Below are positions 3,583 to 50,564 of a stretch of DNA of 64,000 nucleotides, in pieces. Positions within the stretch are counted from its first letter, which is position 1; every line of letters begins with the position of its first letter. This DNA is from Salminus brasiliensis (lineage: Eukaryota; Chordata; Actinopteri; Characiformes; Bryconidae), in the NCBI RefSeq assembly GCF_030463535.1, contig NC_132878.1, positions 90,443,507 through 90,507,506 of the forward strand, in the 5' to 3' direction. The position numbers were made by a program, and so were the translations under genes. A model generated the notes under the pieces. The model saw nothing but the letters and a program-made list of their open reading frames with translations. It ran no database searches and had not been told where the DNA came from.

Positions 3583-5853
3583 TCAGGCCAACTGGGGTAA
3601 CCTCAGTTTGAATAATGTCAGTTTGAATAATCTGAAGGGGAGCCTAAGTCTCCAGGTTTTCTGCATCACTGTGGACTGTGGGAGCACAGGCTCTGCTTCC
3701 ACCACCAGCCCATGGAGCAGGATTTTTCCTTCAGAATGGAATCCACCCAGTATGTTATCATTACCGGGAGCCATGAAAGACATCTACAGGGGGTAAACCG
3801 CATTCGTCTTTTTTGGGATCTGTTGGAAGGACAAAAGGACAAAGATTGATCAGACATTTCTGCCCAATATTAAATTGATTATACAGTAAGAAATCTGGAT
3901 CACTCAGAAATCGACTCACATACCTTAAACTTGGGGAATTTCAGCCACCTGGATCTCTGCCTTACTGTGGGCTGTGGGAGAACAGCTTCATCCTCAACCA
4001 CCGGCCCACAGAGCAAGATGTTCGAAATCCCATCCTCACAGCTTTGTTTAGAACTGGAAGAAGCAGGAGCTTCTGTAGAGGCAGCACTGGAGGAGTTGTC
4101 CACCTTAGAGTTCACTGTAAAGAACCTCTTCATCTTCCCTCGAAGTGACTGGGAGGTTCTGAGGAATGGTGCTACAAGGTAAGCTTTAGCTGCCCTTTTA
4201 ATTGCAGCACAAAGTGGACTGCAGCTGAAGCAGCCACACTCCTCCCCCACCGCCTCTAAACTTCGGGAAGTGAGACTTGCCCCAGCTCTACTGCTGTTGT
4301 CTTCCTGAGGTGAACTGATGTCCTGATGAGAAGTGCTTACCCCATCCTGTTCATCAATGACTTCCACAGTGAACCTGCCTATAACTCTGGGGACATAAGC
4401 AATAAAGAAAAGGTCCTTAGTGTTAGTGAACTAATGCTGTACGTTACCTATTTACAGAACAGCTCTGCACTCTGAGTAACCTTTATCAGTGCATACTATG
4501 TACAGTACACCAATTGTGTCTCCTTAGTTCCAGTGTTTTCAGAGCTGAGATACAACGCATGGAACAAATGAAGCACTTAATAAATGAATTAATAAGTAAT
4601 ATATATTCATAATAATAAATAAACAAACAAACATACTGTATTTTCTTCAACCGCTTAATGGTGTTCTGCTCATCAGCGTCAGTTTTGGAGGAGAAACCAT
4701 CTACCTTCTCCCAACCATCTACCTTAGGGTGTTTCTCAGGCATCCCAAACAGATTTTCCTGTGGAGCGCTTTTACCCTCAGCTACAGACGGGCCTGCGGC
4801 CTTACCCGTTTCACTGTTGATGACAATAAAAGAAACAAATTATAAATGAAACAGCTCAAAGAATCTGGGGGTGTTTCACAAAGCAGGATTCTTAGTTCAG
4901 CCAGAAAAGCCCAGATCCCAGCCTGTCTAATAGAAGAAGACCTGAGGGACATTCCTATCCTCACCATTGGGCTAAAGTTATCTGGCTAGCTGAGAAATGC
5001 CTCTTTGTGACACACCCCCTGCAGATCTTTCTAATGCAACGGTTTGCTTACCATTCTTGACGTGACTGCAGCCATGGGTGCTTTTCCACATCTGTCACAG
5101 ACGGGCGAGTGGAAGGGTCGTACTGCAGCATGTAGTACAGGGCTCCTCCACTGTGATCCCAACTGGATACTGCAGGGCTTTACGCTGGACTCGTAGCAAT
5201 TTATGCGCACGCTTTTCTTTAAAGGGCACGGACCCGGTAACCATTTGGTAAAGAACCACTCCCAGGCTCCACACATCACTTTTCTTTGGATCATAAGGCT
5301 GACACCTAATCACCTCCGGTGCAGCGCAGAAAAGAGTGCAGCAATATGTCTCACTCATTTCTGGGAAGCCTTTTGAAAAGCGTGAAAGACCAAAGTCTGC
5401 TAGCTTGACTTGATAATCAGCTGTCAGCAGAACATTTGTACATTTGAGGTCTCGATGCACAATGTCCTGCTTGTGCAGGTAGACCACAGCACTGACAAGC
5501 TGGGAGAACCAGGTTTTGGCCAGGCCAGTGGGGATGTGGTGGCGCAGCTTGATCTCCCGTTTGAGATCGCTTATAGCAGCTTCCATCACGATACAGACCT
5601 GTCCGTTATTCATCTTAAGAATGTTGTGCACCTCAACAATGTGAGGGTGCTTCACTTTTTTCAGAATGGCGAGTTCCCGGGGCAGATATTTCTGAACTAA
5701 AGTACTTGACCCCCTCCTGCTGTCTATTATTTTAATAGCCACCATGTTGGGGTGCTTTTCAGAGGTGGCCAGTTTAACCTGGCCAAAATTCCCTTCACCT
5801 ATTTTGCGCAGCACCGTGTAGCCCATTCGTCTCAGGACTGTCTCAGTGGCCAT
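3583..5853 (-). pseudogene. Copy A, TSSK-like protein kinase, frameshifted
   Basis: This is the first of five copies of a four-exon kinase gene. The kinase exon is 5,052-5,853, followed by 4,637-4,813, 3,924-4,386 and a terminal exon 3,583-3,783 (or 3,784-3,819 with the alternative acceptor). Splice donors GTAAG, GTATG and GTATGTGAG are all present. The start ATG at 5,853 matches the other copies; an in-frame ATG six codons upstream is probably not used. The kinase core is intact through APE: GEGNFG, VAIK lysine, HRDLKCTN and DFG. Compared with copy C, a net 13 bp is missing near 5,135, where the sequence shifts after VEEPC and stops at 5,095, removing the last C-lobe helices and the tail. 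It also reads C for Y just before APE, as in copy B. Exons 2-4 remain open, so the lesion is probably young. The promoter block upstream is still present, so it might be transcribed. Confidence 0.85.
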
Positions 5854-5968
5854 TTCCTCCCTGTGGATCAAAAGAGAAGCTGAAAGTTAGAAAGTTTTGA
5901 AAGAGAATCAGATGTAGAACCTGTTTCTGGTTCTAGATAAGATGGCTCTAGATAACTGTGTTAACCAA

Positions 5969-6094
5969 ATGACATCACTGTCATTTAGACCGTAGAAATC
6001 AAGTGTCTCGAGAGCTGCTGAATCCTTGACTGAGCCAATGAGGGAGAGAACACCCCTTTTATAGGGTTCTGTGATGTCATCGGTATGACATCAC
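5969..6094 (-). promoter_or_regulatory. TATA box plus CRE-like palindrome, copy A promoter
   Basis: On the minus strand a CTATAAAAG box (6,056-6,064) lies just downstream of an inverted repeat, GTGATGTCAT-4 nt-ATGACATCAC (6,071-6,094). The same decamer ATGACATCAC occurs again at 5,969-5,978, inside the predicted leader. TGATGTCA and TGACATCA resemble cAMP-response elements with one mismatch to TGACGTCA. The block survives although the kinase exon is frameshifted. Confidence 0.6.
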
Positions 6095-6157
6095 AATGGA
6101 GAGGTGAGCTGGGGTCAGTGAGGTCAGTTTCTTCATTGGCTGTACAGGACTGTATGT

Positions 6158-7900: not shown

Positions 7901-7901
7901 G

Positions 7902-8456
7902 TTACACCAGGAAGGGGATCTCGCTGACATGGAATACACATTTCTGTAATTTAGCGTATAGCAGGTGGGCCCTGAGCCTCGCCAGGACCAGTTGAACATG
8001 CCGAACATGCCGAACATGCGTGGGCAGGTCGGGGAAGTGCACTAGAATGTCGTCCAGAAAGACCACCGAGAAGCGTCCGAGGTAGTCTTTGAGGACGTCA
8101 TTGATGAATGCCTGGAAGACAGAGGGAGCGTTAGCTGACCCGTACAGCATGACCCGGTACTGGTAATGCCCCCTGGTGGTCATGAACGCCGTCTTCCACT
8201 CGTCCCCCTCCCGGATGCGTACTAAGTTAAGATCTAATTTCGTAAAGGTCCGGGCTCCCCACAACTGTTCGAGGGCAGACGGGACTAACGGCATAGGATA
8301 AGGATATCTCTTTGTGATAGTGTTGAGTGCCCGATAATCAATGCATGGCCTCAACCCACCTCCCTTCTGCCGGATTAAAAAGAACCCTGAAGCCACCGGA
8401 GACTTGGATGGGGTGATGTATCCCTGAGCTAATGCTTCTGTAATATAGTCCTCCAT
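7902..8456 (-). pseudogene. Gypsy reverse transcriptase fragment
   Basis: The open stretch reads [20 protein letters not shown], then [18 protein letters not shown], then [13 protein letters not shown] and [11 protein letters not shown], the hallmark order of Ty3/Gypsy reverse transcriptases. FLDD stands at the catalytic YxDD position, so both metal-binding aspartates remain. The segment after TKLDL is shortened ([11 protein letters not shown]), so a conserved turn with the first catalytic region has lost residues. It ends at [12 protein letters not shown] with a stop and no connection or RNase H domain. Not functional. Confidence 0.85.
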
Positions 8457-8462
8457 TGCCCG

Positions 8463-11259: not shown

Positions 11260-11264
11260 GTCAG

Positions 11265-16862: not shown

Positions 16863-17745
16863 TATTATTATTATATCATAATTACTTTTATTATTGTATT
16901 AACATCACTACTATGACATTACCAGTACACCAAACAATAAAAGAAAAATAACTACTTTTTTATAGTTTGTGTAAAGAGCATAGAGAGAATAGAGAGGCTA
17001 ATTTTAATGGTTATTATCTTGTAAATAGGATTTACAGCAGCCTTTGTAAAAGTAAAAGTAAAGCTCAAATAAATTGGGTTGCCAGATTTGGGCATGGTGC
17101 TGCTTTCCTTGTTTCCACTCTAAAACTGTACAAATTTAAATAACATCCCGTTATATAGGATATTATAAGCTATAATTATTATAGCATATTGTAGAATATA
17201 ATCTATAATATATTTTTAACAGTGTAAATAATATAAACTACACATCAGAAGTTTTAACATGTTCTATACAATATTTCAAGTGTGTTTAACTTTTGAATTT
17301 ACTGTGTCTATCTGTAGCATTTTGTTTCCATCATTCCCTTTTCAATATATCATTACTGACGTTGCTTTTTCTGTGTTCTTTAATCCTATGATGTTACAAT
17401 CATTTAAACCTGTGAAGAAAAATGGGTTTTATACTATTGAACAAGTAAGAAAGTAAGAAACCAACAAACAGAATTGTTTGTGAATTATTATTTATTGTAA
17501 TATTTTACATTTTTATAGATCCTCTATAAGATACTAGAACAGCTGTGTTTTTTTAAAGGAATATTTATTATTATTGTATCATCTTATAATAAAATCTTTA
17601 TGATAAATGATCAGCTCTTTAGTTTTACACACTCTGGGTCAGGTCTGAGATCTTACACCTGGACTAATCTGAGATTCATCTTCAGAGCTCAGACTCAGGT
17701 ATAGAGATGGTAAATATCTAGTTTTTACTCTAGGAGGAAAAAAGA
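15692..17745. other. Unit B spacer without a recognisable gene
   Basis: AT-rich sequence shared with units D (34,740-36,730) and E (44,580-46,600). It includes an ATT/ACT microsatellite (16,825-16,875). Reading frames are short and frequently broken. The first 1.1 kb is missing from unit A. Confidence 0.6.
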
Positions 17746-18743
17746 AACTGGCTTTCCTCGACACAATGGAGCAGCAGCTCTACTCTGAGCCTCTCAGAGA
17801 TAACAGAAGACTGAGCGGGAGACCACCATGGCCTCAGATCTGGAGGTGCTGATTCTTATACTGACCACTGCAAACTGCTCAAGTGCTGCTGGAGGCCTTC
17901 ACACGCGGAAGCCAGCAGGACAATGTCATCTGCAAACAGCAGAAACAAGCCCCCGGCCCCCCGCCTGAAGCCATCCTTGCCCTTGCCTTCGCATTGCTAT
18001 CCTGTCCATGAATATCACAAACAGGAAGTGAGAGAAGGCACAGCTCTGATGGAGTCCAACACCAACACTGAACAAGCTTCAGTGCTGAGAATACGGACAC
18101 AGCTCTCACACCGAGAGTACAGGGACTGCACGACTCGGATCAGCACCTGTCGCACCCCCGATACCCCAGGAGCACTTCCTACAAGATGTCTTGGGGAACA
18201 CAGTCGTAAGCCTTCTCCTTCTCCACAAAACACATGTAGACTGGAGTGATGTACTCCCATGTCCCCTCAACAATCTCAGAGAGAGTGAGGAGCTGGTCCA
18301 ACGTTCTACAGCCAGGACAGAATCTGCATTACTCCACCTAAATCTGAGGGTTAACTATCAGGTGCATTCTCCTTTGCACTATACTGGACTAAACTTTCCA
18401 GGGAGGCTGAGATATGTGATGCATCAATAATTTGCATGCACTCTCCAGTCCTCTTTCTTGAAAATAGGGACCACCACCCTGGTTAGCCAGTCCAGAAGCA
18501 CTGCTCCCGAGGTCCATGCAACACTAGAAAGTGTCTCGAACAAGACAGCCCCCCAATGTCTAGAGCCTTTAGCAACTCTGGGCAAATCCCATCTACTCTT
18601 GATTTGCCACTGTGGTGCTTTCCAGCTACCTCAGTAACCTCAGCCATAAAAGATGGATGATGCCCCAGTAGCCTCCAGCCCTGCCTCCTGGACAGAAGCC
18701 ATGTTCCTCGGGATTAGGAGTTCCTCAAAGTGTTCTATCCAGC
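17746..18743 (-). repeat. First copy of a 998-bp tandem duplication (LINE fragment)
   Basis: This block and 18,744-19,741 are nearly identical at an exact 998-bp offset; I see one substitution near 18,138 (cgactcggatc versus cgactcgcatc). The repeat covers most of the fossil LINE reverse transcriptase fragment. The junction joins ttctatccagc to aactggctttcc with almost no overlap. Confidence 0.9.
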
Positions 18744-20341: not shown

Positions 20342-22174
20342 TCAGGCCAACTGGGGTAACCGCAGTTTGAATAATGTCAATTTGAATAATCTGAAGGGGA
20401 GCCTAAGTCTCCAGGTTTCCTGCATCTCTGTGGACTGTGGGAGCACAGGCTCTGCTTCCACCACCAGCCCATGGAGCAGGATTTTTCCTTCAGAATGGAA
20501 TCCACCCAGTATGTTATCATTACCGGGAGCCATGAACGACATCTACAGGGGGTGAACCGCATTCGTCTTCTTTGGGATCTGTTGGAAGGACAAAAGGACA
20601 AAGACTGATCAGACATTTCTGCCCACTATTAAAGTGATTATACAGTAAAAAATCTGGATCACTCAGAAATCGACTCACATACCTTAAACTTGGGGAATTT
20701 CAGCCTCCTGGATCTCTGCCTTACTGTGGGCTGTGGGAGAACAGCTTCATCCTCAACCACCGGCCCACAGAGCAAGATGTCCGAAATCCCATCCTCACAG
20801 CTTTGTTTAGAACTGGAAGAAGCAGGAGCTTCTGTAGAGGCAGCACTGGAGGAGTTGTGCACCATAGAGTTCACTGTGAAGAACCTCTTCATCCTCCCTC
20901 GAAGTGACTGGGAGGTTCTGAGGAACGGTGCTACAAGGTAAGCTTTAGCTGCCCTTTTAATTGTAGCACAAAGTGGACTGCAGCTGAAGCAGCCGCACTC
21001 CTCCCCCACCGCCTCTACGCTTCGGGAAGTGAGACTTGCCCCAGCTCTACTGCTGTTGTCTTCCTGAGGTGAACTGATGTCCTGATGAGAAGTGCTTACC
21101 CCATCCTGTTCATCAATGACTTCCACAGTGAACCTGCCTATAACTCTGGGGACATAAGCAATAAAGAAAAGGTCCTTAGTGTTAGTGAACTAATGCTGTA
21201 CGTTACCTATTTACAGAACAGCTCTGCACTCTGAGTAACCTTTATCAGTGCATACTATGTACAGTACACCAAGTGTGTCTCCTTAGTTCCAGTGTTTTCA
21301 GAGCTGAGATACAACACATGGAACAAATGAAGCACTTAATAAATGAATTCATAAGTAATATATATTCATAATAAAAAAACAAAACAAAACAAACATACCG
21401 TATTTTCTTCAACCGCTTAATGGTGTTCTGCTCATCAGCGTCAGTTTTGGAGGAGAAACCATCTACCTTCTCCCAACCATCTACCATAGGGTGTTCCTCA
21501 GGCTTTCCAAACAGATTTTCCTGTGGAGTGCTTTTACCCTCAGCTACAGACGGGCCTGCAGCCTCACCCGTTTCACTGTTGATGACAATAAAAGAAACAT
21601 ATTATAAATCAAACAGCTCAAAGAATCTGGGGGTGTTTCACAAAGCAGGATTCTTAGTTCAGCCAGAAAAGCCCAGATCCCAGCCTGTCCAATAGAAGAA
21701 GAGCTGAGGGACATTCCTATCCTCACCATTGGGCTAAAGTTATCTGGCTAGCTGAGAAATGCTGATTTGTGAAACACCCCCTGCAGATATTTCTAATGCA
21801 GCGGTTTGCTTACCATTCTTGGCGTGACTGCAGCCATGGGTGCTTTTCCACATCTGTCACAGACGGGCGAGTTGAAGGGTCGTACTGCAGCATGTAGGAA
21901 ATTAAGGCCCGACAGGGCTCCTCCACTGTGATCCCAACTGGATACTGCAGGGCTTTACGCTGGACCCGTAGCAATTTATGCGCACGCTTTTCTTTAAAGG
22001 GCACGGATCCGGTAACCATTTGGTAAAGAACCACTCCCAGGCTCCACACATCACTTTTCTTCGGATCATAAGGCTGACACCTAATCACCTCCGGTGCAGC
22101 GCAGAAACGAGTGCAGCAATATGTCTCACTCATTTCTGGGAAGCCTTTTGAAAAGCGTGAAAGACCAAAGTCTG
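20342..22174 (-). pseudogene. Copy B, TSSK-like kinase lacking N-lobe and promoter
   Basis: The kinase exon is only partial, 21,814-22,174. It begins at DFGLSRFS in the activation segment and keeps APE, DVWSLG, the arginine of the last subdomain and the splice donor. Glycine loop, catalytic lysine, HRD loop, start codon and promoter are gone. Exons 2 (21,399-21,575), 3 (20,683-21,145) and 4 (20,342-20,542, or 20,543-20,578) are open with good splice sites. Homology stops at about 22,174, followed by roughly 190 bp of unrelated sequence and then the downstream flank of unit C. It shares C before AAPE and VVLYQMV with copy A, against Y and LYVMV in C-E, so A and B form one subgroup. Confidence 0.9.
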
Positions 22175-22365
22175 AAAGACCAAAGGAGCCGAAGCTGGCC
22201 TAAACACACCATGATCTGTGTCCGGAACCTCTCGAGGTCCTAAACAAGAAATTCTCGGTGAGGAGCTCAGTGTCAGAGCTCCTAAAGTACCCCCAGTCTC
22301 AGGTGAAACACATGAACTAAACAAGACATGAAGAACAATCAAAACCCAAACACACATTATAATTT
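22175..22365. other. Filler DNA at the B/C rearrangement junction
   Basis: About 190 bp with no match to other units. It begins with a short repeat of the adjacent gaaagaccaaag. A stretch near 22,300 (tctcaggtgaaac) recalls the Gypsy LTR at 10,058-10,070, so LTR-derived filler is possible. After 22,365 the sequence matches unit spacer (17,505 on in unit B). Confidence 0.5.
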
Positions 22366-32207: not shown

Positions 32208-32893
32208 TGCCGAGTCTGCAGCAAAATCACTAAATTCTTTTAAAAATTTAGAATAGGGCCCTGGAGGCCTATAGATATTAATTAGTGTGAATGCATTTTT
32301 ATTTGTGGCTGAATTTGATATATTAATGTAGAGAATCTCAAAAGAAGTGAAGGTGTTACAGTGTTTTTGAATAATATCTAGTGTATTCTGATAGATTATG
32401 CATACTCCACCTCCTCTGCCTGATAATCTAGGGCTATGTACATATTTATAACCTGCAGGGGTGGCTTCATTTAGTGCTACATATTGATCAGGTCTAATCC
32501 AGGTTTCAGTGAAGCAGAGAACGTCTAGTTTCTGATCACATATAATTTAATTTATAATAACTGCTTTCGAGTTTAGTGATCTAATGTTAAGTAGACTTAG
32601 CTTTAGGTCTGAGTTGCTGCTGTTATCGTTTGATTGCGAATTTGAATTTTCCACTGATCAAATTATTAAAACGAGCTGATCTAGATGTTCTATGTTTGCG
32701 TTTAATTCGGGGCACAGACACAGTCTCAATACAGTGAAACCTGGGTGACGCCTCAAAGCAGCTCTCAGACGGTCGGTTTAACCTGTCTGTCTGCGGCCTG
32801 GTCTCGGCTCTGGTTTGTCAGCAGCCTTTTACACTCCTCTGCCGACTAACTAGCAGACTATGGGCTATGCTGCACGAAAGTACCCTTACCCTA

Positions 32894-33769: not shown

Positions 33770-34010
33770 GGGCAGTGGTGGCTCAGCGGTTAGAGCGCCA
33801 GGATATCGATAACAGGGTTGTGGATTCCCGGGCTCGGCAAGCTGCCACTGTTGGGCCCTTGAGCAAGGCCCTTTACCCTCTCTGCTCCCCGGGCACTGGA
33901 GTGTGTGTGTGTGTGAGTGTGTGTTCACTACCAGATGGGTTAAATGCGGAGGACACATTTCGCTGTACAGTCCACACTGTACAGTGACAAATATGTGCAC
34001 CTTTACATTA
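33770..34010 (+). mobile_element. Young tRNA-derived SINE, unit D
   Basis: Starts gggcagtggtggctcagcgg (A-box-like) and continues through caagctgccactgttgggcc, cttgagcaaggccctttacc, a GT repeat and gatgggttaaatgcggagga. The usual ggttcgattcc B box (present in 43,583) is shortened here to gttgtggattcc. Absent from the same place in unit B (about 14,857). Confidence 0.85.
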
Positions 34011-34077
34011 CTTAAATGTAAATTGAACATTAGACAAACTTCATCAAACACATTTGTGATGATTATTTTTATTTATA

Positions 34078-34280
34078 TGAGGAGCAAATCACCAACATGC
34101 AAACGATCACCACCCCACCTCCTCCCTAATTCCCTAACTCATTTCAAAAGTACTGAATGGAACCCCATCATCATTCCAGAGAACACAGTCACACTGCTCC
34201 ACAGCTCAGTGCTGGGGGGCTTTATACCCCTCCAGCCCACTCCTGGCATTAGAAAGCATGGTGCTAATAGGTTCATGTTT
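34078..34280. mobile_element. MITE-like dispersed repeat, unit D
   Basis: Same element as 14,935-15,135; passes into the unit block at about 34,283, with about 110 bp of the B version missing at the join. Confidence 0.6.
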
Positions 34281-34282
34281 AT

Positions 34283-36730
34283 CTGAGCTGTGTAAATGTA
34301 CTGCTGCAGTAATATTTCCCTCAGTGCAGTTTACAGGAAGGGACACATTAGTTGCTATTACATATAAACCCAATGGACCAATCAACCAATTCTATTTCCT
34401 GTATGTCTGTTTCCTTTAATGAGAAGAGAGCAGACAGGATCTATAGATATTCATTCCAGTCCTGCACATCACCCGATTTTCTGATTTTACTAATGACCTC
34501 TCCTCAGTGAAGGAGACCACCATTCTGCTGCTTAACAAAGAAGTGAAGCAAATTAGAGAAATTAGTATTGTGGTGCATGGGTGGAAATAAGACTTGTGAA
34601 CAATGCAGCAGCCGATGGATCCAGATTAGTGCAGATACTCCGACCCTCGGCTACCCGGCTCCCGTCAGTGAGGATTAGGCTTTAGATTAAGGCACTAATT
34701 TAAATCACCATTAAAAAATCCTTCTTTTGATATTTTCTGTTACTATGAAGAGAAAAGTTGTCACAACATGATATGTAGAAATTGTTGGCCAAAAATATTT
34801 TGGGTCATCAGCTGTGGCCTTCTTCCCATTGAGCTTAAAATCTTATGTTCAATGAATGAGCTGTACTGTTCTCAGTCATTTTCATTCATCTTTGAGTTAA
34901 ATGAACTGATAATAATTAATAATCCAATTATTAATTGGAAAATGAATAGTAATTGGTCCATGAGAGCCTAAAACATATTAAAATGAAATAAAAATACCAA
35001 CATATGAGTCAGCTGTGCTGTTTCAGTAACTTACAGTGGGTTTGTGGTGCAATACAATATTCTAAAGTAAACCTTGGGTTCTCCTGGTTCTCCTTGCACA
35101 TTTTGTGTGTCCTCACTCCCCTTCACTCACCGCCAGGGTGTAGTCATTCCCACTAGGCCACATTTCCTTAGGTATTCAGTTATATTTTACTGAATGGTTG
35201 ATTGCTTGGTTTCAGTGTGAAAAGCTGAGAGAGCAAGTTATCATTTTTCTGTGCTACAGAGTGTGATTATATGCTGGCTGAGTACAACAGTGTTCAGTCT
35301 TGTATTACCACAGGATTATACCATAGGGTTGGGCAATATAAGGGTAATATTGTATACTGCTGTATTTACTGTGTCTGATCTGTCAATCTTCTGCCCTGTT
35401 CCTCAATAACCCAGAGGTTTATAGACACAGGGCATTGTGGTAATCTGAGATGTTGGTGCTATTATTGCTAATTGCACACATTTGTAGATGGTGGAGTTGA
35501 TGGATGCCAGTTTTTTTAAGGTGCTCTCGTGTCTGTGTTATCTTCTGGCTCTCTCCATTTAGTTAAGCTGTTATCGTCAGACTTGCCAGAGTCGCAAGCC
35601 ACATTCTGCTAATGTCACATTCTCTGTTATCTATAAATGAGAGAATTCATTCCATCTCTTTACCGTTTTCTAAATAAAATGACTGCTGACCTGTCCAGCC
35701 TGACACTGATAGAAGATTATCCGTTAGGCTGTTCTGCTGCCCACCTCAGACCAGCAGGTGACCCTCCAGCTACTGCTACCTGCCTCAGACTAGTTGCCCA
35801 CTTTCCATTTTGAACTACATTGAAGTTAAAATAGACTCAAAATATGAATCTACCAATTGCTGCTATTATTATTATTATTACTATTATTATATCATAATTA
35901 CTTTTATTATTGTATTAACATCACTATTAAGACATTATCAGTACATCAAACATAACAAGAAAAATAACTACTTTTTTATAGTTTGTGTAAAGAGCATAGA
36001 GAGAATAGAGAGGCTAATTTTAATGGTTATTATCTTGTAAATAGGATTTACAGCAGCCTTTGTAAAAGTAAAAGTAAAGCTCAAATAAATTGGGTTGCCA
36101 GATTTGGGCATGGTGCTGCTTTCCTTGTTTCCACTCTAAAACTGTACAAATTTAAATAATATCCCGTTATATAGGATATTATAAGCTATAATTATTATAG
36201 CATATTGTAGAATATAATCTATAATATATTTTTAACAGTGTAAATAATATAAACTACACATCAGAAGTTTTAACATGTTCTATACAATATTTCAAGTGGG
36301 TTTAATTTTGTTTCCATCATTCCCTTTTCAATATATCATTACTGACGTTGCTTTTTCTGTGTTCTTTAATCCTATGATGTTACAATCATTTAAACCTGTG
36401 AAGAAAAATGGGTTTTATACTATTGAACAAGTAAGAAAGTAAGAAACCAACAAACAGAATTGTTTGTGAATTATTATTTATTGTAATATTTTACATTTTT
36501 ATAGATCCTCTATAAGATACTAGAACAGCTGTGTTTTTTTAAAGGAATATTTATTATTATTGTATCATCTTATAATAAAATCTTTATGATAAATGATCAG
36601 CTCTTTAGTTTTACACACTCTGGGTCAGGTCTGAGATCTTACACCTGGACTAATCTGAGATTCATCTTCAGAGCTCAGACTCAGGTAGAGAGATGGTAAA
36701 TATCTAGTTTTTACTCTAGGAGGAAAAAAA
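34283..36730. other. Unit D block and spacer
   Basis: Homologous to 15,240-17,745 of unit B. The 78-codon frame is interrupted near 34,470. An ATT microsatellite lies at 35,864-35,890. No gene is recognised. Confidence 0.6.
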
Positions 36731-36731
36731 G

Positions 36732-38060
36732 AAACTGGCTTTCCTCGACACAATTGAGCAGCAGCTCTACTCTGAGCCTCTCCGAGATAACAGAAGACTG
36801 AGCGGGAGACCACCATGGCCTCAGATCTGGAGGTGCTGATTCTTATACTGACCACTTCAAACTGCTCAAGTGCTGCTGAAGGCCTTCACACGCAGAAGCC
36901 AGCAGGACAATGTCATCTGCAAACAGCAGAAACAAGCCCCCGGCCCCCCGCCTGAAGCCATCCTTGCCCTTGCCTTTGCATTGCTATCCTGTCCATGAAT
37001 ATCACAAACAGGAAGTGAGAGAAGGCACAGCTCTGATGGAGTCCAACACCAACACTGAACAAGCTTCAGTGCTGAGAATACGGACACAGCTCTCACGCCG
37101 AGAGTAAAGGGACTGCACGACTCGCATCAGCACCTGTCGCACCCCCGATACCCCAGGAGCACTTCCTACAAGATGTCTTGGGGAACACAGTCGTAAGCCT
37201 TCTCCTTCTCCACAAAACACATGTAGACTGGAGTGATGTACTCCCATGTCCCCTCAACAATCTCAGAGAGAGTGAGGAGCTGGTCCAACGTTCTACAGCC
37301 AGGACAGAATCCGCATTACTCCACCTGAATCTGAGGGTTAACTATCAGGTGCATTCTCCTTTGCACTATACTGGACTAAACTTTCCAGGGAGGCTGAGAT
37401 ATGTGATGCATCAATAATTTGCATGCACTCTCCAGTCCTCTTTCTTGAAAATGGGAACCACCACCCTGGTTAGCCAGTCCAGAAGCACTGCTCCCGAGGT
37501 CCATGCAACACTAGAAAGTGTCTCGAACAAGACAGCCCCCCAATGTCTAGAGCCTTTAGCAACTCTGGGCAAATCCCATCTACTCTTGATTTGCCACTGT
37601 GGTGCTTTCCAACTACCTCAGTAACCTCAGCCAGAAAAGATGGATGATGCCCCAGTAGCCTCCAGCCCTGCCTCCTGGATAGAAGCCATGTTCCTCGGGT
37701 TTAGGAGTTCCTCAAAGTGTTCTATCCAGCACCCAACAATACCCTCAGCTGAGTTCAGAGCTTCAGCACCCTTACTGAGCACAGTTTGGACAGTGTCGCT
37801 CCTTCCCCTTCTGAGTTGTCGGAGTGCTTTCCAGAACCTCCTTGTGGCTGCACTGAAGTCTTTCTCCATGGCCTCTCTAAACTACTCTGCAATAGCTGTT
37901 ACCTTTTTTGCCTGCTGCCTCAATGGAATCGAGAGTACCCAGAGCCTTCCTCCACTTGACAGCCTCCCTGATTAAAGGTTGCAACCAAAAGAAGCACCAA
38001 CTAGTCGAGTCAAATTTGGTTATACTGCTTTTGAGAACCTGATGTTGTTGCAAAGCAGCT
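36732..38060 (-). mobile_element. LINE ORF2 fragment, unit D
   Basis: Single copy of the decayed LINE, with the same order of RT pieces as in unit A: pre-RT at 37,627-37,869, FADD-region frame at 36,866-37,096. L2 tail remnant follows at 38,045-38,240. Confidence 0.8.
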
Positions 38061-38459
38061 TTACAGAAATATGGAAATAACAGATCAAATTAATAAATCA
38101 ATAAATAAAAACAAATAAAATTGCAACCCCAAGTGAGCAAGCCAAAGGCGACAGTGGCAAGGAAAAACTCCCTCAGAGCTGGAGGAAGAAACCTTGGGAG
38201 GAACCAAGACTCACTTTGGGGGACCCATCCTCCTCTGATCAAAAAAACCTATAAATTACTAAAAATGGTGTAAAGTCAGGTGTAAAGGTGTGAATGTAAA
38301 TGTAAATATAAGTCACCCAAGAGACACTATGAGTGAACCAAGGTACAATCTCTGGGTTTTGAACATGGTGTTTCCTATCATGGACAAATTGTGTGCACTC
38401 CAAACCCAAACCTTAGAGGTGGTGGGTCCAGATAGTCGCCCCAAGTTATTTGTTCAGGC

Positions 38460-40728
38460 TCAGGCCAACTGGGGTAACCTCAGTTTGAGTAATGTCAGTT
38501 TGAATAATCTGAAGGGGAGCCTAAGTCTCCAGGTTTTCTGCATCACTGTGGACTGTGGGAGCACAGGCTCTGCTTCCACCACCAGCCCATGGAGCAGGAT
38601 TTTTCCTTCAGAATGGAATCCACCCAGTATGTTATCATTACCGGGAGCCATGAAAGACATCTACAGGGGGTGAACCGCATTCGTCTTTTTTGGGATCTGT
38701 TGGAAGGACAAAAGGACAAAGATTGATCAGACATTTCTGCCCAATATTAAAGTGATTATACAGTAAGAAATCTGGATCACTCAGAAATCGACTCACATAC
38801 CTTAAACTTGGGGAATTTCAGCCTCCTGGATCTCTGCCTCACTGTGGGCTGTGGGAGAACAGCTTCATCCTCAACCACCGGCCCACAGAGCAAGATGTCC
38901 GAAATCCCATCCTCACAGCTTTGTTTAGAACTGGAAGAAGCAGGAGCTTCTGTAGAGGCAGCACTGGAGGAGTTGTGCACCTTACAGTTCACTGTGAAGA
39001 ATCTCTTCATCCTCCCTCGAAGTGACTGGGAGGTTCTGAGGAACGGTGCTACAAGGTAAGCTTTAGCCGCCCTTTTAATTGTAGCACAAAGTGGACTGCA
39101 GCTGAAGCAGCCACACTCCTCCCCCACCGCCTCTACGCTTCGGGAAGTGAGACTTGCCCCAGCTCTACTGCTGTTGTCTTCCTGAGGTGAACTGATGTCC
39201 TGATGAGAAGTGCTTACCCCATCCTGTTCATCAATGACTTCCACAGTGAACCTGCCTATAACTCTGGGGACATAAGTAATAAAGAAAAGGTCCTTAGTGT
39301 TAGTGAACTAATGCTGTACGTTACCTATTTACAGAACAGCTCTGCACTCTGAGTAACCTTTATCAGTGCATACTATGTACAGTACACCAAGTGTGTCTCC
39401 TTAGTTCCAGTGTTTTCAGAGCTGAGATACAACACATGGAACAAATGAAGCACTTAATAAATGAATTCATAAGTAATATATATTCATAATAAAAAAACAA
39501 AACAAAACAAACATACTGTATTTTCTTCAACCGCTTAATGGTGTTCTGCTCATCAGCGTCAGTTTTGGAGAAGAAACCATCTACCTTAGGGTGTTTCTCA
39601 GGCGTCCCAAACAGATTTTCCTGTGGAGCGCTTTTACCCTCAGCTACAGACGGGCCTGCGGCCTCACCCGTTTCACTGTTGATGACAATAAAAGAAACAA
39701 ATTATAAATCAAACAGCTCAAAAAATCTGGGGGTGTTTCACAAAGCAGGATTCTTAGTTCAGCCAGAAAATTCCAGATCCCAGCCTGTCCAATAGAAGAA
39801 GAGCTGAGGGACATTCCTATCCTCACCATTGGGCTAAAGTTATCTGACTAGCTGAGAAATGCCTCTTTGTGAAACACCCCCTGCAGATATTTCTAATGCA
39901 GCGGTTTGCTTACCATTCTTGGCGTGACTGCAGCCATGGGTGCTTTTCCACATCTGTCACAGACGGGCGAGTTGAAGGGTCGTACTGCAGCATGTAGGAA
40001 ATTAAGGCCCGACAGGGCTCCTCCACTGTGATCCCAACTGGATACTGCAGGGCTTTACGCTGGACCCGTAGCAATTTATGCGCACGCTTTTCTTTAAAGG
40101 GCACGGACCCGGTAACCATTACGTAAAGAACCACTCCCAGGCTCCACACATCACTTTTCTTTGGATCATAAGGCTGACGCCTAATCACCTCCGGTGCAGC
40201 GTAGAAACGAGTGCAGCAATATGTCTCACTCATTTCTGGGAAGCCTTTTGAAAAGCGTGAAAGACCAAAGTCTGCTAGCTTGACTTGATAATCAGCTGTC
40301 AGCAGAACATTTGTACATTTGAGGTCTCGATGCACAATGTCCTGCTTGTGCAGGTAGACCACAGCACTGACAAGCTGGGAGAACCAGGTTTTGGCCAGGC
40401 CAGTGGGGATGTGGTGGCGCAGCTTGATCTCCCGATTGAGATCTGTTATAGCAGCCTCCATCACGATACAGACCTGTCCGTTATTCATCTTAATAATGTT
40501 GTGCACCTCAACAATGTGAGGGTGCTTCACTTTTTTCAGAATGGCGAGTTCCCGGGGCAGAAATTTCTGAACTAAAGTACTTGACCCCCTCCTGCTGTCT
40601 ATTATTTTAATAGCCACCTGGTTGGGGTGCTTTTCAGAGGTGGCCAGTTTAACCTGGCCAAAATTCCCTTCACCTATCTTGCGCAGCACCGTGTAGCCCA
40701 TTCGTCTCAGGACTGTCTCAGTGGCCAT
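38460..40728 (-). CDS. Copy D, TSSK-family serine/threonine kinase, intact
   Basis: Exons 39,914-40,728; 39,517-39,675; 38,801-39,263; 38,460-38,660 (alternative terminal exon 38,661-38,696). All junctions have GT-AG ends and agree in phase; predicted length is about 545 residues. The kinase domain differs from copy C at only a few positions (for example HIVEVHNIIK against YIVEVHNIVK) and keeps Lys41, Glu60, HRD, DFG and APE. Exon 2 is 18 nt shorter than in A-C, in frame, removing one of two VDG-containing repeats (VDGWEK). The tail keeps the CGCFSCSPLC cluster. Near-identity to copy E suggests a very recent duplication or conversion. Promoter block is complete. Confidence 0.85.
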
Positions 40729-40843
40729 TTTCTCCCTGTGGATTAAAAGAGAAGCTGAAAGTTAGAAAGTTTTGAAAGAAAATCAGATGTAGAACCTGTT
40801 TCTGGTTCTAGATAAGATGGCTCTAGATAACTGTGTTAACCAA

Positions 40844-40970
40844 ATGACATCACTGTCATTTAGACCGTAGAAATCAAGTGTCTCGAGAGCTGCTGAATCC
40901 TTGACTGAGCCAATGAGGGAGAGAACACCCCTTTTTATAGGGTTCTGTGATGTCATCAGTATGACATCAC
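40844..40970 (-). promoter_or_regulatory. TATA box plus CRE-like palindrome, copy D promoter
   Basis: GTGATGTCAT-4 nt-ATGACATCAC at 40,947-40,970, CTATAAAAAG at 40,931-40,940 and a leader ATGACATCAC at 40,844-40,853. The palindrome arms are unchanged from A, C and E while the 4-nt spacer varies (cggt, cagt, ctgt). Confidence 0.65.
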
Positions 40971-41418
40971 AATGGAGAGGTGAGCTGGGGTCAGTGAGGT
41001 CAGTTTCTTCATTGGCTGTACAGGACTGTATGTACACACACACACACACACACACACACTGTGCTGTGAAAATGTGTCAAAATAAAAGTCACACAAACAA
41101 AACAGAAATACAAAATTCTTTCAAACTAAAAGCTAAAATTACTGTTGCACATTTGTGTGCCCTTTTTTGTGCTAATCTGAATTTTTTTTACACCACTACC
41201 TCTGACAAAGACCCAGCTTTTTGAAACTGGGCTCTACCTTGAAATGCAAAATACTTTGACAGTCTTCAGATTTAGTAATAACATGTACGTTATGTTGATG
41301 CATTTTTTGAAAGAAAGGCAGGGGTGCCAATATTTTCGGTCATGTCTTTATCTAGTGGAAAGAAGTATATTGTGTAGTGAAGTCAAGTGATAACTTAGGT
41401 TTCCTGTTACTATGCAAT

Positions 41419-41634
41419 GGGCAGTGGTGGCTCAGCATTTGGAGTACTAGGCTATTGATGGTGGGTTTGCGGGTTCGATACCATGGCTCAGCAAGCTGCC
41501 ACTGTTGGGCCATTGAGCAAGGCTTTTAACACTCTCAGTGCCCTGGATGGTGCAGCAAAGGCTCCTCGCTAGTGTGTGTGTGTTTTCACTGCATGCATGG
41601 GTTAAAGTCAGAGGCCAGATTCCATTTCTGTCCA
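41419..41634 (+). mobile_element. Old tRNA-derived SINE, unit D
   Basis: Counterpart of 27,268-27,481, with B-box-like gggttcgatacc. Confidence 0.75.
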
Positions 41635-42044
41635 ACAAAAATGGAGAACATGGGTGTTTTTGCTTTTATTTTAACAGTTGCTGCTTTAATGTATGAGAGT
41701 CTGACCTCTCTGAAGCAACAACAGCAGCCCCTTATACATCACTGCTGATCACCATACAGCAGAAACACTGAGTCGTGGTTCTAGATAGAGTAGTTTACTA
41801 ACCACTTCACCTCAGGTTCAGTTCTCACATCGGTTAACCCCCAGTGCATCATGTGTTTTTTTTTTTTTTTTGGAGCCTCTGTGTTCCAGTCAGATCTGCT
41901 GGAATATAAAATATATTTGATCTGGTTTATCCTGTTATTGTAATGTACACTGACAGACAGACAAAGGTTTGTTTAACATGCCAAGATCAATGGCGCCAAG
42001 GGTCCTTTTGCCCGATGGGCATTGCACTACAGTCCGAACCTAGA

Positions 42045-42268
42045 CCTCAAGGGTGGTGGGTCCATGTTGTCGTCCTATGATATTTTGACAACCAGGCTGT
42101 GGGAGAACATTGCCGGGAGCCATTTTAAACATTTAGAAGTCGTAATCTGTTAGAAGGACAAAATGACATATGACCAAACATTTCTGACCAATATTTAAAG
42201 TGATTTACAGTATAAAATTTGAATCACTAAAAATCCTTACACTTGGGTATTTTCAGGGTCGGTACTAC
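42045..42268 (-). pseudogene. Relic of an older kinase gene 3' end, unit D
   Basis: Counterpart of 27,885-28,106; keeps the same order of short matches to the exon 4/intron 3 region and the same jump into exon 3-like gggtcggtactacaaag. Confidence 0.6.
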
Positions 42269-43140: not shown

Positions 43141-43151
43141 CAGGCAGCAGG

Positions 43152-43582: not shown

Positions 43583-43862
43583 GGGCAGTGGTGGCTCAGC
43601 GGTTAGAGCGCCAGGATATCGATAACAGGGTTGTGGGTTCGATTCCCGGGCTCGGCAAGCTGCCACTGTTGGGCCCTTAAGCAAGGCCCTTTACCCTCTC
43701 TGCTCCCCGGGCACTGGAGCGTGTGTGTGTGTGTGTGTGTACTCACTGCCCCTAACACATGTGTGTGTGTCAGTGTGTGTTCACTACCAGATGGGTTAAA
43801 TGCGGAGGACACATTTCGCTGTACAGTCCACACTGTACAGTGACAAATATGTGCACCTTTAC
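43583..43862 (+). mobile_element. Young tRNA-derived SINE, unit E
   Basis: Has a good A box (tggctcagcggttagagc) and B box (gggttcgattcccgggc), then body, an expanded GT repeat and the tail. Same insertion point as 33,770 in unit D. Confidence 0.85.
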
Positions 43863-43929
43863 ATTACTTAAATGTAAATTGAACATTAGACAAACTTCAT
43901 CAAACACATTTTTGATGATTTTTTTATTT

Positions 43930-44130
43930 ATATGAGGAGCAAATCACCAACATGCAAACGATCACCACCCCACCTCCTCCCTAATTCCCCAACTCATTTC
44001 AAAAGTACTGAATGGAGCCCCATCATCATTCCAGAGAACACAGTCACACTGCTCCACAGCTCAGTGCTGGGGGGCTTTATACCCCTCCAGCCCACTCCTG
44101 GCATTAGAAAGCATGGTGCTAATAGGTTCA
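43930..44130. mobile_element. MITE-like dispersed repeat, unit E
   Basis: Same element as 14,935-15,135 and 34,078-34,280. Confidence 0.6.
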
Positions 44131-44206
44131 TGTTTATCTGAGCTGTGTAAATGTACTGCTGCAGTAATATTTCCCTCAGTGCAGTTTACAGGAAGGGACA
44201 CATTAG

Positions 44207-44443
44207 TTGCTATTACATATAAACCCAATGGACCAATCAACCAATTCTATTTCCTGTATGTCTGTTTCCTTTAATGAGAAGAGAGCAGACAGGATCTATA
44301 GATATTCATTCCAGTCCTGCACATCAACCCCTGTTAAATTTACTAATGACCTCTCCTCAGTGAAGGAGACCACCATTCTGCTGCTTAACAAAGAAGTGAA
44401 GCAAATTAGAGAAATTAGTATTGTGGTGCATGGGTGGAAATAA
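44207..44443 (+). other. Conserved 78-codon open frame, unit E
   Basis: Same unidentified frame as 15,306-15,542; open, with the B-type sequence at the SCTSTPVKF segment. Confidence 0.3.
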
Positions 44444-46598
44444 GACTTGTGAACAATGCAGCAGCCGATGGATCCAGATTAGTGCAGATACTCCGACCCT
44501 CGGCTACCCGGCTCCCGTCAGTGAGGATTAGGCTTTAGATTAAGGCACTAATTTAAATCACCATTAAAAATCCTTCTTTTGATATTTTCTGTTACTATGA
44601 AGAGAAATGTTGTCACAACATGATATGTAGAAATTGTTGGCCAAAAATATGTTGGGCCATCAGCTGTAGCCTTCTTCCCATTGAGCTTAAAATCTTATGT
44701 TCAATGAATGAGCTGTACTGTTCCTAGTCATTTTCATTCATCTTTGAGTTAAATGAACTGATAATAATTAATAATCCAATTATTAATTGGAAAATGAATA
44801 GTAATTGGTCCATGACAGCCTAAAACATATTAAAATGAAATAAAAATACCAACATATTCCAGTAACCTGAGTCAGCTGTGCTGTTTCTGTAACGTACAGT
44901 GGGTTTGTGGTGCAATACAATATTCTAAAGTAAACCTTGGGTTCTCCTGGTTCTCCTTGCACATTTTGTGTGTCCTCACTCCCCTTCATTCACCATCAGG
45001 GTGTAGTCATTCCCACAAGGCCACATTTCCTTAGGTATTCAGTTATATTTTACTGAATGGTTGATTGCTTGGTTTCAGTGTGAAAAGCTGTGAGAGCAAG
45101 TTTATCATTTTTCTGTGCTACAGAGTGTGATTATATGCTGGCTGAGTACAACAGTGTTCAGTCTTGTATTACCACAGGATTATACCATAGGGTTGGGCAG
45201 TATAACAGTAATATTGTATACTGCTGTATTTACTGTGTCTGATCTGTCAATCTTCTGCTCTGTTGCTCAATAACCCAGAGGTTTATAGACACAGGGCATT
45301 GTGGTAATCTGAGATGTTGGTGCCATTATTGCTAATTGCACACATTTGTAGATGGTGGAGAGGATGGATGCCAGTTTTTTTAAGGTGCTCTCGTGTCTGT
45401 TTTATCTTCTGGCTCTCTCCATTTAGTTAAGCTGTTATCGTCAGACTTGCCAGAGTCGCAAGCCACATTCTGCTAATGTCACATTCTCTGTTATCTATAA
45501 ATGAGAGAATTCATTCCATCTCTTTACTGTTTTCTAAATAAAATGACTGCTGACCTGTCCAGCCTGACACTGATAGAAGATTATCCGTTAGGCTGTTCTG
45601 CTGCCCACCTCAGACCAGCGGCTGACCCTCCAGCTACCGCTACCTGCCTCAGACTAGTTGCCCACTTTCCATTTTGAACTACATTGAAGTTAAAATAGAC
45701 TCAAAATATGAATCTACCAATTGCTGCTATTATTATTATTATTACTATTATTATATCATAATTACTTTTATTATTGTATTAACATCACTATTAAGACATT
45801 ATCAGTACATCAAACATAACAAGAAAAATAACTACTTTTTTATAGTTTGTGTAAAGAGCATAGAGAGAATAGAGAGGCTAATTTTAATGGTTAGTATCTT
45901 GTAAATAGGATTTACAGCAGCCTTTGTAAAAGTAAAAGTAAAGCTCAAATAAATTGGGTTGCCAGATTTGGGCATGGTGCTGCTTTCCTTGTTTCCACTC
46001 TAAAACTGTACAAATTTAAATAATATCCCGTTATATAGGATATTATAAGCTATAATTATTATAGCATATTGTAGAATATAATCTATAATATATTTTTAAC
46101 AGTGTAAATAATATAAACTACATATCAGAAGTTTTAACATGTTCTATACAATATTTCAAGTGGGTTTAATTTTGTTTCCATCATTCCCTTTTCAATATAT
46201 CATTACTGACGTTGCTTTTTCTGTGTTCTTTAATCCTATGATGTTACAATCATTTAAACCTGTGAAGAAAAATGGGTTTTATACTATTGAACAAGTAAGA
46301 AAGTAAGAAACCAACAAACAGAATTGTTTGTGAATAATTATTTATTGTAATATTTTACATTTTTATAGATCCTCTATAAGATACTAGAACAGCTGTGTTT
46401 TATTAAGGAATATTTATTATTATTGTATCATCTTATAATAAAATCTTTATGATAAATGATCAGCTCTTTAGTTTTACACACTCTGGGTCAGGTCTGAGAT
46501 CTTACACCTGGACCAATCTGAGATTCATCTTCAGAGCTCAGACTCAGGTAGAGAGATGGTAAATATCTAGTTTTTACTCTAGGAGGAAAAAAAGAAAC
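44444..46598. other. Unit E spacer without a recognisable gene
   Basis: Homologous to unit B 15,543-17,745 and unit D 34,590-36,730. An ATT microsatellite lies at 45,727-45,755. Up to about 45,250 it shares variants with unit B; past about 46,150 it shares a deletion with unit D. Confidence 0.6.
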
Positions 46599-46599
46599 T

Positions 46600-47925
46600 G
46601 GCTTTCCTCGACACAATGGAGGCAGCAGCCTCTCAGAGATAACAGAAGACTGAGCGGGAGACCACCATGGCCTCAGATCTGGAGGTGCTGATTCTTATAC
46701 TGACCACTTCAAACTGCTCAAGTGCTGCTGAAGGCCTTCACACGCGGAAGCCAGCAGGACAATGTCATCTGCAAACAGCAGAAACAAGCCCCCGGCCCCC
46801 CGCCTGAAGCCATCCTTGCCCTTGCCTTCGCATTGCTATCCTGTCCATGAATATCACAAACAGGAAGTGAGAGAAGGCACAGCTCTGATGGAGTCCAACA
46901 CCAACACTGAACAAGCTTCAGTGCTGAGAATACGGACACAGCTCTCACACCGAGAGTACAGGGACTGCACGACTCGCATCAGCACCTGTCGCACCCCCGA
47001 TACCCCAGGAGCACTTCCTACAAGATGTCTTGGGGAACAAAGTCGGAAGCCTTCTCCTTCTCCACAAAACACATGTAGACTGGAGTGATGTACTCCCATG
47101 TCCCCTCAACAATCTCAGCGAGAGTGAGGAGCTGGTCCAACTTTCTACAGCCAGGACAGAATCCGCATTACTCCACCTGAATCTGAGGGTTAACTATCAG
47201 GTGCATTCTCCTTTGCACTATACTGGACTAAACTTTCCAGGGAGGCTGAGATATGTGATGCATCAATGATTTGCATGCACTCTCCAGTACCCTTTCTTAA
47301 AAATGGGGACCACCACCCTGGTTAGCCAGTCCAGAAGCACTGCGCCCGAGGTCCATGCAACACTAGAAATTGTCTCGACCAAGACAGCCCCCCAATGTCT
47401 AGAGCCTTTAGCAACTCTGGGCAAATCCCATCTACTCTTGATTTGCCACTGTGGTGCTTTCCAACTACCTCAGTAACCTCAGCCAGAAAAGATGGATGAT
47501 GCCCCAGTAGCCTCCAGCCCTGCCTCCTGGATAGAAGCCATGTTCCTCGGGTTTAGGAGTTCCTCAAAGTGTTCTATCCAGCACCCAACAATACCCTCAG
47601 CTGAGTTCAGAGCTTCAGCACCCTTACTGAGCACAGTTTGGACAGTGTCGCTCCTTCACCTTCTGAGTTGTCGGAGTGCTTTCCAGAACCTCCTTGTGGC
47701 TGCACTGAAGTCTTTCTCCATGGCCTCTCCAAACTACTCTGCAATAGCTGTTACCTTTTTTGCCTGCTGCCTCAATGGAATCGAGAGTACCCAGAGCCTT
47801 CCTCCACTTGACAGCCTCCCTGATTACAGGTTGCCACCAAAAGGAGCTCCAACTAGTCGAGTCAAATTTGGTTATACTGCTTTTGAGAACCTGATGTTGT
47901 TGCAAAGCAGCTTTACAGAAATATG
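46600..47925 (-). mobile_element. LINE ORF2 fragment, unit E
   Basis: Same decayed LINE as in the other units, with a small deletion near 46,620. L2 tail remnant follows at 47,895-48,090. Confidence 0.8.
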
Positions 47926-48298
47926 GAAATAACAGATCAATTAATAAATCAATAAATAAAAACAAATAAAATTGTAACCCCAAGTGAGCAAGCCAAAGGC
48001 AACAGTGGCAAGGAAAAACTCCCTCAGAGCTGGAGGAAGAAACCTTGGGAGGAACCAAGACTCACTTTGGGGGACCCATCCTCCTCTGATCAAAAAAACC
48101 TATAAATGACTAAAAATGGTGTAAAGGTGTGAATGTAAATGTAAATATAAGTCACCCAAGAGACACTATGAGTGAACCAAGGTACAATCTCTGGGTTTTG
48201 AACATGGTGTTTCCTATCATGGACAAATTGTGTGCACTCCAAACCCAAACCTTAGAGGTGGTGGGTCCAGATAGTCACCCCAAGTTATTTGTTCAGGC

Positions 48299-50564
48299 TC
48301 AGGCCAACTGGGGTAACCTCAGTTTGAGTAATGTCAGTTTGAATAATCTGAAGGGGAGCCTAAGTCTCCAGGTTTTCTGCATCACTGTGGACTGTGGGAG
48401 CACAGGCTCTGCTTCCACCACCAGCCCATGGAGCAGGATTTTTCCTTCAGAATGGAATCCACCCAGTATGTTATCATTACCGGGAGCCATGAAAGACATC
48501 TACAGGGGGTAAACCGCATTCGTCTTTTTTGGGATCTGTTGGAAGGACAAAAGGACAAAGATTGATCAGACATTTCTGCCCAATATTAAAGTGATTATAC
48601 AGTAAGAAATCTGGATCACTCAGAAATCGACTCACATACCTTAAACTTGGGGAATTTCAGCCACCTGGATTTCTGCCTCACTGTGGGCTGTGGGAGAACA
48701 GCTTCATCCTCAACCACCGGCCCACAGAGCAAGATGTCCGAAATCCCATCCTCACAGCTTTGTTTAGAACTGGAAGAAGCAGGAGCTTCTGTAGAGGCAA
48801 CACTGGAGGAGTTGTGCACCTTAGAGTTCACTGTGAAGAACCTCTTCATCCTCCCTCGAAGTGACTGGGAGGTTCTGAGGAACGGTGCTACAAGGTAAGC
48901 TTTAGCTGCCCTTTTAATTGCAGCACAAAGTGGACTGCAGCTGAAGCAGCCGCACTCCTCCCCCACCGCCTCTACGCTTCGGGAAGTGAGACTTGCCCCA
49001 GCTCTACTGCTGTTGTCTTCCTGAGTTGAACTGATGTCCTGATGAGAAGTGCTTACCCCATCCTGTTCATCAATGACTTCCACAGTGAACCTGCCTATAA
49101 CTCTGGGGACATAAGCAATAAAGAAAAGGTCCTTAGTGTTAGTGAACTAATGCTGTACGTTACCTATTTACAGAACAGCTCTGCACTCTGAGTAATCTTT
49201 ATCAGTGCATACTATGTACAGTACACCAAGTGTGTCTCCTTAGTTCCAGTGTTTTCAGAGCTGAGATACAACGCATGGAACAAATGAAGCACTTAATAAA
49301 TGAATTCATAAGTAATATATATTCATAATAAAAAAAATTAAAAAAAACATACCGTATTTTCTTCAACAGCTTAATGGTGTTCTGCTCATCAGCGTCAGTT
49401 TTGGAGGAGAAACCATCTACCTTAGGGTGTTTCTCAGGCGTCCCAAACAGATTTTCCTGTGGAGCGCTTTTACCCTCAGCTACAGACGGGCCTGCGGCCT
49501 CACCCGTTTCACTGTTGATGACAATAAAAGAAACAAATTATAAATCAAACAGCTCAAAAAATCTGGGGGTGTTTCACAAAGCAGGATTCTTAGTTCAGCC
49601 AGAAAAGCCCAGATCCCAGCCTGTCCAATAGAAGAAGACCTGAGGGACATTCCTATCCTCACCATTGGGCTAAAGTTATCTGGCTAGCTGAGAAATGCCT
49701 CTTTGTGACACACCCCCTGCAGATCTTTCTAATGCAGCGGTTTGCTTACCATTCTTGGCGTGACTGCAGCCATGGGTGCTTTTCCACATCTGTCACAGAC
49801 GGGCGAGTTGAAGGGTCGTACTGCAGCATGTAGGAAATTAAGGCCCGACAGGGCTCCTCCACTGTGATCCCAACTGGATACTGCAGGGCTTTACGCTGGA
49901 CCCGTAGCAATTTATGCGCACGCTTTTCTTTAAAGGGCACGGACCCGGTAACCATTACGTAAAGAACCACTCCCAGGCTCCACACATCACTTTTCTTTGG
50001 ATCATAAGGCTGACGCCTAATCACCTCCGGTGCAGCGTAGAAACGAGTGCAGCAATATGTCTCACTCATTTCTGGGAAGCCTTTTGAAAAGCGTGAAAGA
50101 CCAAAGTCTGCTAGCTTGACTTGATAATCAGCTGTCAGCAGAACATTTGTACATTTGAGGTCTCGATGCACAATGTCCTGCTTGTGCAGGTAGACCACAG
50201 CACTGACAAGCTGGGAGAACCAGGTTTTGGCCAGGCCAGTGGGGATGTGGTGGCGCAGCTTGATCTCCCGATTGAGATCTGTTATAGCAGCTTCCATCAC
50301 GATACAGACCTGTCCGTTATTCATCTTAAGAATGTTGTGCACCTCAACAATGTGAGGGTGCTTCACTTTTTTCAGAATGGCGAGTTCCCGGGGCAGAAAT
50401 TTCTGAACTAAAGTACTTGACCCCCTCCTGCTGTCTATTATTTTAATAGCCACCTGGTTGGGGTGCTTTTCAGAGGTGGCCAGTTTAACCTGGCCAAAAT
50501 TCCCTTCACCTATCTTGCGCAGCACCGTGTAGCCCATTCGTCTCAGGACTGTCTCAGTGGCCAT
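48299..50564 (-). CDS. Copy E, TSSK-family serine/threonine kinase, intact
   Basis: Exons 49,750-50,564; 49,353-49,511; 48,640-49,102; 48,299-48,499 (alternative terminal exon 48,500-48,535). Predicted length is about 545 residues. The kinase domain is complete with GEGNFG, VAIK, HRDLKCTN, DFG and YAAPE; it reads HNILK where C and D read HNIVK or HNIIK. Exon 2 has the same 18-nt in-frame deletion as copy D. Exon 3 keeps the CGCFSCSPLC cluster and basic segment. Promoter block and AC microsatellite are present upstream. This is the last unit on the right, and its upstream flank leads out of the array. Confidence 0.85.

Follow-up and report, generated by a model that had tools for sequence, protein, structure and literature searches.

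The 64-kb window analysed here (64,000 nucleotides from Salminus brasiliensis, assembly GCF_030463535.1, contig NC_132878.1; C1:90443507-90507506 of the 1.066-Gb genome, with contigs labelled C1, C2 and so on) contains an array of kinase genes that probably belong to a spermatid-expressed, TSSK6-like family whose arrays, spread over many chromosomes, take up some two hundred or more places. This reading draws on the identity of the kinase, on the catalytic residues of six open copies in the window's own array (the home array), on a gene plan found in most of the groups read, on purifying selection, and on a promoter with cAMP response elements (CRE) and a TATA box in about half of the groups. 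As the first-pass annotation of the window had proposed, positions 3583-50564 hold five minus-strand copies (A-E) of a single kinase gene, and both self-BLAST and exon mapping recover them. Copies C, D and E are open, with spliced frames of 496, 490 and 490 amino acids (aa; ATG at 26580, 40728 and 50564) and with the catalytic Lys, Glu, Asp, Asn and DFG kept, while A and B had rightly been called broken: in A (start at 5853), the kinase exon has lost 13 bp close to its end, which shifts the frame and leads to a stop after 252 aa, and B keeps only kinase residues ~151-272 (22178-21813), its promoter and the 5′ half of its kinase exon being gone. The description of a five-copy array holds for the window but not for the full array: reading of 48.5 kb of leftward flank, along with a search of protein E against the whole genome, revealed three further copies to the left (starts at -7917, -16168 and -28034), whose spliced frames are open and 485-496 aa long, for a total of eight kinase-bearing copies, six of them open. 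The repeat units are 97.8% identical over 8.2 kb between D and E, 96.9% over 5.4 kb between C and D, and 96.1% over 5.5 kb between A and E, and units so nearly identical may conceal assembly errors.

In a search of solved structures, the best matches were the TSSK6 chains of 8otz and 8iyj, which we take to be bovine and mouse (286 and 283 bits), followed by SIK3 (159 bits) and MARK2 (158 bits); TSSK6 was the sole TSSK among the 60 matches listed. When bovine TSSK6 (8otz) was used as a genome query, its best matches were the family of the home kinase, at up to 310 bits and 55% identity, and a hand-entered human TSSK1 sequence again matched the same family best, at 228 bits and 47% at most. The earlier label of TSSK-like was therefore sound and can be narrowed to TSSK6-like (286 versus 159 bits, and 310 versus 228 bits); the possibility of better matches outside TSSK was checked on the solved structures, where TSSK6 came out on top. 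TSSK6 and the family kinase domain are ~51% identical over almost their full length (residues 3-268 aligned to 3-269), all five catalytic features are kept in 6/6 open home copies, and the unspliced frame measures 272 aa against 273 aa in TSSK6. Judged by sequence, the home kinase family is TSSK6-like, and closer to TSSK6 than to the other kinases compared, a comparison that within TSSK took in TSSK6 and human TSSK1. TSSK1-5 are members of the same kinase family, with an HRDLKC catalytic loop. Of 993 candidates, 144 were scored, and none of these was a separate canonical single-exon tssk6 closer to TSSK6; such a search would pass over a gene split by introns. The family differs from TSSK6 in its copy number, some two hundred or more, in the P+1 loop, where the home copies have YCCT and bovine and mouse TSSK6 have YCGS (CGS or CGT is found in some other clusters), and in a kinase exon that is predicted from sequence to be flanked by splice sites and tail exons; mouse Tssk transcripts are intronless except for Tssk4, according to the available part of one report (PMC7401350). 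Large lineage-specific amplification is also familiar from the PIM-type kinases of fish, which represent a different kinase family from the TSSK6-like one.

The home-type kinase exon or its remnants occupy at least 227 places on 19 contigs, forming 42 groups parted by 0.5 Mb; the list was merged from several genome searches and includes broken and partial copies, and 11 of its starts were estimated from pattern sites. Dropped from it were C13:16264279, which is partial, C19:12021727, which appears NEK-like and is 31% identical to copy E, and three sites of the HRDLKCxN pattern described below, L060-L062, which showed no TSSK-like match exceeding 100 aa. Local amplification, as first noted for the window, is thus real, but is one part of a family spread over at least 19 contigs, and for that reason a sex-linked amplification of the home array alone would be an insufficient account. 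In the search of protein E against its own genome, all 142 scored rows (142 of 1,148 candidates) were at least 60% identical and 137 were stop-free, a figure that overstates intactness because frameshifted copy A also counts as stop-free. A DNA pattern for HRDLKCxN hit 208 genome sites, versus one for the reversed control. A tree of 48 rows, which included five of 16 distinct sequences from the C2:32.6-Mb array as well as bovine TSSK6, recovered the six home rows, the C2 rows, four C11 rows, two C29 rows and two C18 rows as clades with 99-100% support in the Shimodaira-Hasegawa-like approximate likelihood ratio test. The nearest rows to the home array came from C29, C23/C14 and C15, in a clade with support of 97 that is unresolved inside, and few of the deep forks are resolved. 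Arrays on C2, C11 and C26 are tight, unlike those at C3:19.9-21.3 Mb, C5:33.2-37.1 Mb and C8:28.5-33.8 Mb, where units spaced by tens to hundreds of kb extend over megabases. No comparable TSSK expansion appeared in titles and abstracts on TSSK, TSSK6, kinomes and testis-specific kinases, a literature sample in which subscription journals are thinly covered and which leaves absence unproven.

The four-exon model of the first-pass annotation is backed by comparison between copies. The kinase frame ends at a GT[A/G]AG donor in 56 of the 59 copies with DNA read there, and in every copy of 24/27 groups, the three misses being copy A, C7 and a pseudogene; in the home copies, this phase-2 donor itself forms the stop codon of the unspliced frame. 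At the other end, a splice-acceptor-like YAG occurs within 22 bases before the start in 55/61 copies, and the fuller C[TC][AG]CAG form in 43/61 copies and 21/30 groups, which suggests a putative additional 5′ non-coding exon. It should be kept in mind that copies of one array are not independent in these counts, and that 18 of the copies come from the C2:32.6-Mb array. The tail exon was present in 20 of 33 loci tested, and for 10 of the other 13 the stretch read was short and held little downstream DNA; when a single tail exon was searched against the genome, 150 of 667 candidate places were scored, of which 144 were stop-free and 131 lay within 6 kb of a listed kinase. The tail, first noted as unusual, is not confined to the home array and occurs beside many other clusters. 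An intronless gene with the tail as untranslated region, which we also considered, would be ruled out by the predicted splice sites and tail exons. For 16 open tails, the ratio of nonsynonymous to synonymous divergence (dN/dS) was below 1 in 113/113 scorable pairs (of 120), with a median of 0.55; these tails were picked for an open match, one is cut before its stop, and L016 and L019 (stops), L045, L048 and L049 were excluded. Conserved tail residues include three cysteines, one of them invariant and two nearly so. The AlphaFold model of the tail is a single helix (residues 57-91) at low confidence (predicted local distance difference test score of 54.9), and a known domain was rejected, there being no Pfam match over the cut-off and only an unconvincing best PDB match (E 0.23). 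Downstream of the last exon, at 48310-48470 of the window (also L008:3477 and L052:929), there is another sequence similar to the terminal part of tail exon 3, LHGxVVEAExVLPQPTVMQ; as it recurs in several clusters, it is perhaps an alternative last exon.

Upstream of the kinase start, 7/7 home copies that retain it carry two CRE-like 8-mers (TGATGTCA or TGACATCA) ~14 bp apart, with TATAAA ~16 bp further on. CRE and TATA at like spacing were found in 14 of the 26 groups for which 600 bp or more of upstream DNA was read, and the double CRE in 10, as compared with two occurrences of the single CRE-TATA form and none of the double form in 4,800 mononucleotide-shuffled upstreams; the groups share ancestry and hence are not independent. 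The module has been kept although synonymous sites have diverged by 0.5-1.0 between the home array and other groups. In the available text of two studies, mouse Tssk6 is listed as bound by CREM, and its level falls by log2 3.53 in the testis of Crem-null mice (PMC10454534, PMC3285179). The CRE-type promoter of the family fits CREM control and is as would be expected of a spermatid CREM target, from which we infer spermatid expression.

Between groups, the kinase is under purifying selection: when 29 groups were each represented by one copy, with copy A and a pseudogene excluded, median dN/dS was 0.34, and 390 of 404 scorable pairs were below 0.5. The within-array ratio pN/pS was 0.15 within the 16 distinct C2:32.6-Mb copies. 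Copies D and E differ at 5/1,578 sites in the promoter and kinase exon, versus 110/6,540 elsewhere in the unit (p = 4e-6, for windows picked after the profile was seen), which fits either gene conversion or strong constraint.

If the family is indeed a spermatid one, a CREM/ATF-type factor would switch its genes on in haploid spermatids, and the ~490-aa spliced form may be tethered by its tail, through the Cys cluster and basic helix, to a spermatid or flagellar structure, where, by analogy with mammalian TSSK6, it could phosphorylate axonemal or head-remodelling proteins. Retention of the first intron would yield a short, TSSK6-sized kinase of 272 aa, because the phase-2 donor GTAAG itself creates a stop codon. 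Unequal crossing-over would enlarge the arrays, with the promoter and kinase exon homogenised locally, and array growth would bring both higher dosage and a supply of variants. The accessible portion of one mouse study places TSSK6 outside the seam of sperm doublet microtubules, together with EFCAB3 and CFAP97D1, and describes knock-out males as infertile, heterozygotes as subfertile, and axonemal phosphorylation as disturbed (PMC13066092). Other partly available sources name zebrafish tssk6 as an elongated-spermatid marker by chromatin accessibility (PMC12759076) and include TSSK6 in a sex-dimorphism quantitative trait locus of carp (PMC4880943). The simplest account of the sequences would be a dosage-amplified, diversified spermatid kinase family. 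Some two hundred or more TSSK6-like places in one genome, many of them sharing a promoter plan and a tail exon, form a natural experiment in which the dosage, redundancy and conflict of sperm signalling could be studied, and on which ideas about the amplification of post-meiotic genes can be tested; a switch between a short and a tailed kinase may also be built in.

Several observations weigh against such a family. CRE-TATA promoters are not exclusive to spermatids, and the module was not found in 12/26 groups, seven of them read for up to 700 bp and five for 1.1-1.5 kb. The home copies have Cys at the Gly of the TSSK6 P+1 loop, so that substrates may differ, and in the tree bovine TSSK6 sits on a long branch, its position within the family being uncertain. 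Some tails contain stops (C29, C23 and C26b), and 19/150 tail places (C11:32928703 and 18 others) have no listed kinase within 6 kb, being either partial units, orphan tails, or neighbours of kinases outside the listed matches; the function proposed for the tail is a guess, with one low-confidence helix predicted. Finally, pN/pS inside the home array is 0.54, so that any constraint on the recent copies is either weak or difficult to detect.

This last ratio, along with the breakage of two of the eight home copies and the reverse-transcriptase fragments which the duplication units carry or adjoin, could also be read as neutral amplification, in which recombination in repeat-rich DNA would have thrown up the arrays incidentally, and most copies would be mere passengers, contributing neither dosage nor a sperm function. 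We regard this as unlikely in view of the between-group dN/dS and the low pN/pS of the C2:32.6-Mb array, of the stop-free majority among kinase rows (137/142) and tail rows (144/150), and of a promoter module common to groups.

The arrays on C3, C8 and C5 contain pairs of kinase exons separated by 0.3-0.4 kb (L058:701-2754, L057:2301-4352, L064 and L068), and in 4/4 loci read, the donor of the first exon and the acceptor nearest the usual start of the second join in frame, phase 2-2; joining to an alternative second AG in the C3 and C8 pairs gives stops. The second exon of the C3 and C8 pairs lacks the usual ATG and has HRDLT for HRDLK and GFR for DFG, leaving the catalytic set incomplete, and a joined C3/C8 transcript, if made, would encode kinase, pseudokinase and tail. 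A DNA pattern for HRDLTCxN hit 39 sites, versus five for the control, with 37 of them within the family arrays on C3, C5 and C8, and in the tree the C3/C8 and C5 pairs cluster by position in the pair. Similar kinase pairs appear in the genome search rows of C12. Joinable pairs of this kind, the very large number of copies in arrays and the inferred spermatid promoter would suit an origin in conflict, whereby post-meiotic kinases acting in cis in haploid sperm, some of them tandem kinase-pseudokinases formed by in-frame duplication of the symmetric phase 2-2 exon, bias transmission or sperm competition as a genome-wide, SMOK-like arms race, with kinase-impaired members as dominant-negative partners. 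There is a precedent in the SMOK-TCR (t-complex responder) system, mouse SMOK being a sperm kinase with a dominant-negative form, as stated in the available part of PMC6394906; the likeness drawn is one of function, and any drive by the present family is hypothetical. Selection on the family is on average purifying, not positive, and we hold this origin to be improbable, more so than neutral amplification. Least credible is an expansion outside the germline, such as one in stress or immune signalling, with no more than a resemblance to TSSK6; CRE and TATA elements do serve somatic genes too, but the kinase domain is clearly TSSK6-like and mouse Tssk6 is a CREM target.

Features of the home array within the window (positions in the window; strand as read)
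Feature	Position	Strand	Details
Copy E kinase exon	49750..50564	-	ATG 50564; donor TG/GTAAGC; unspliced frame W-TAA after 272 aa; Pkinase E 6e-66
Copy E exon 2 (linker)	49353..49511	-	
Copy E exon 3 (tail: Cys cluster + basic segment)	48640..49102	-	
Copy E exon 4 (IPKKTNAVYPL-stop)	48500..48535	-	Short last exons of other clusters are weak matches
Copy E core promoter (predicted)	50681..50805	-	CRE-like 8-mers from 50805, 50791, 50688; TATAAA from 50775
Copy D, open, 490 aa	38661..40728	-	Exons 40728-39914, 39675-39517, 39263-38801, 38696-38661
Copy C, open, 496 aa	24495..26580	-	Exons 26580-25766, 25527-25351, 25097-24635, 24530-24495
Copy B, broken	20540..22178 (low end approximate)	-	Exons 2 and 3 still open: 21574-21398, 21144-20683
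Copy A, broken	3783..5853 (low end approximate)	-	Tail exons 4813-4637, 4386-3924 still open
D duplication unit	33904..42053		Partner 43760-51912; period ~9.86 kb
E duplication unit	43760..51912		Right-most array unit

Between the gene copies, at 7902-8462 and 29802-32546 of the window, there are reverse-transcriptase fragments (RVT_1) and an endonuclease of the long interspersed nuclear element type. Next to copy B, on its left, a 1-kb stretch occurs twice, head to tail, with 99.8% identity (17743-18744 and 18741-19742), a very recent event. To the right of the array, at 58200-59600, open frames are built of simple repeats (CT and CA runs and similar).

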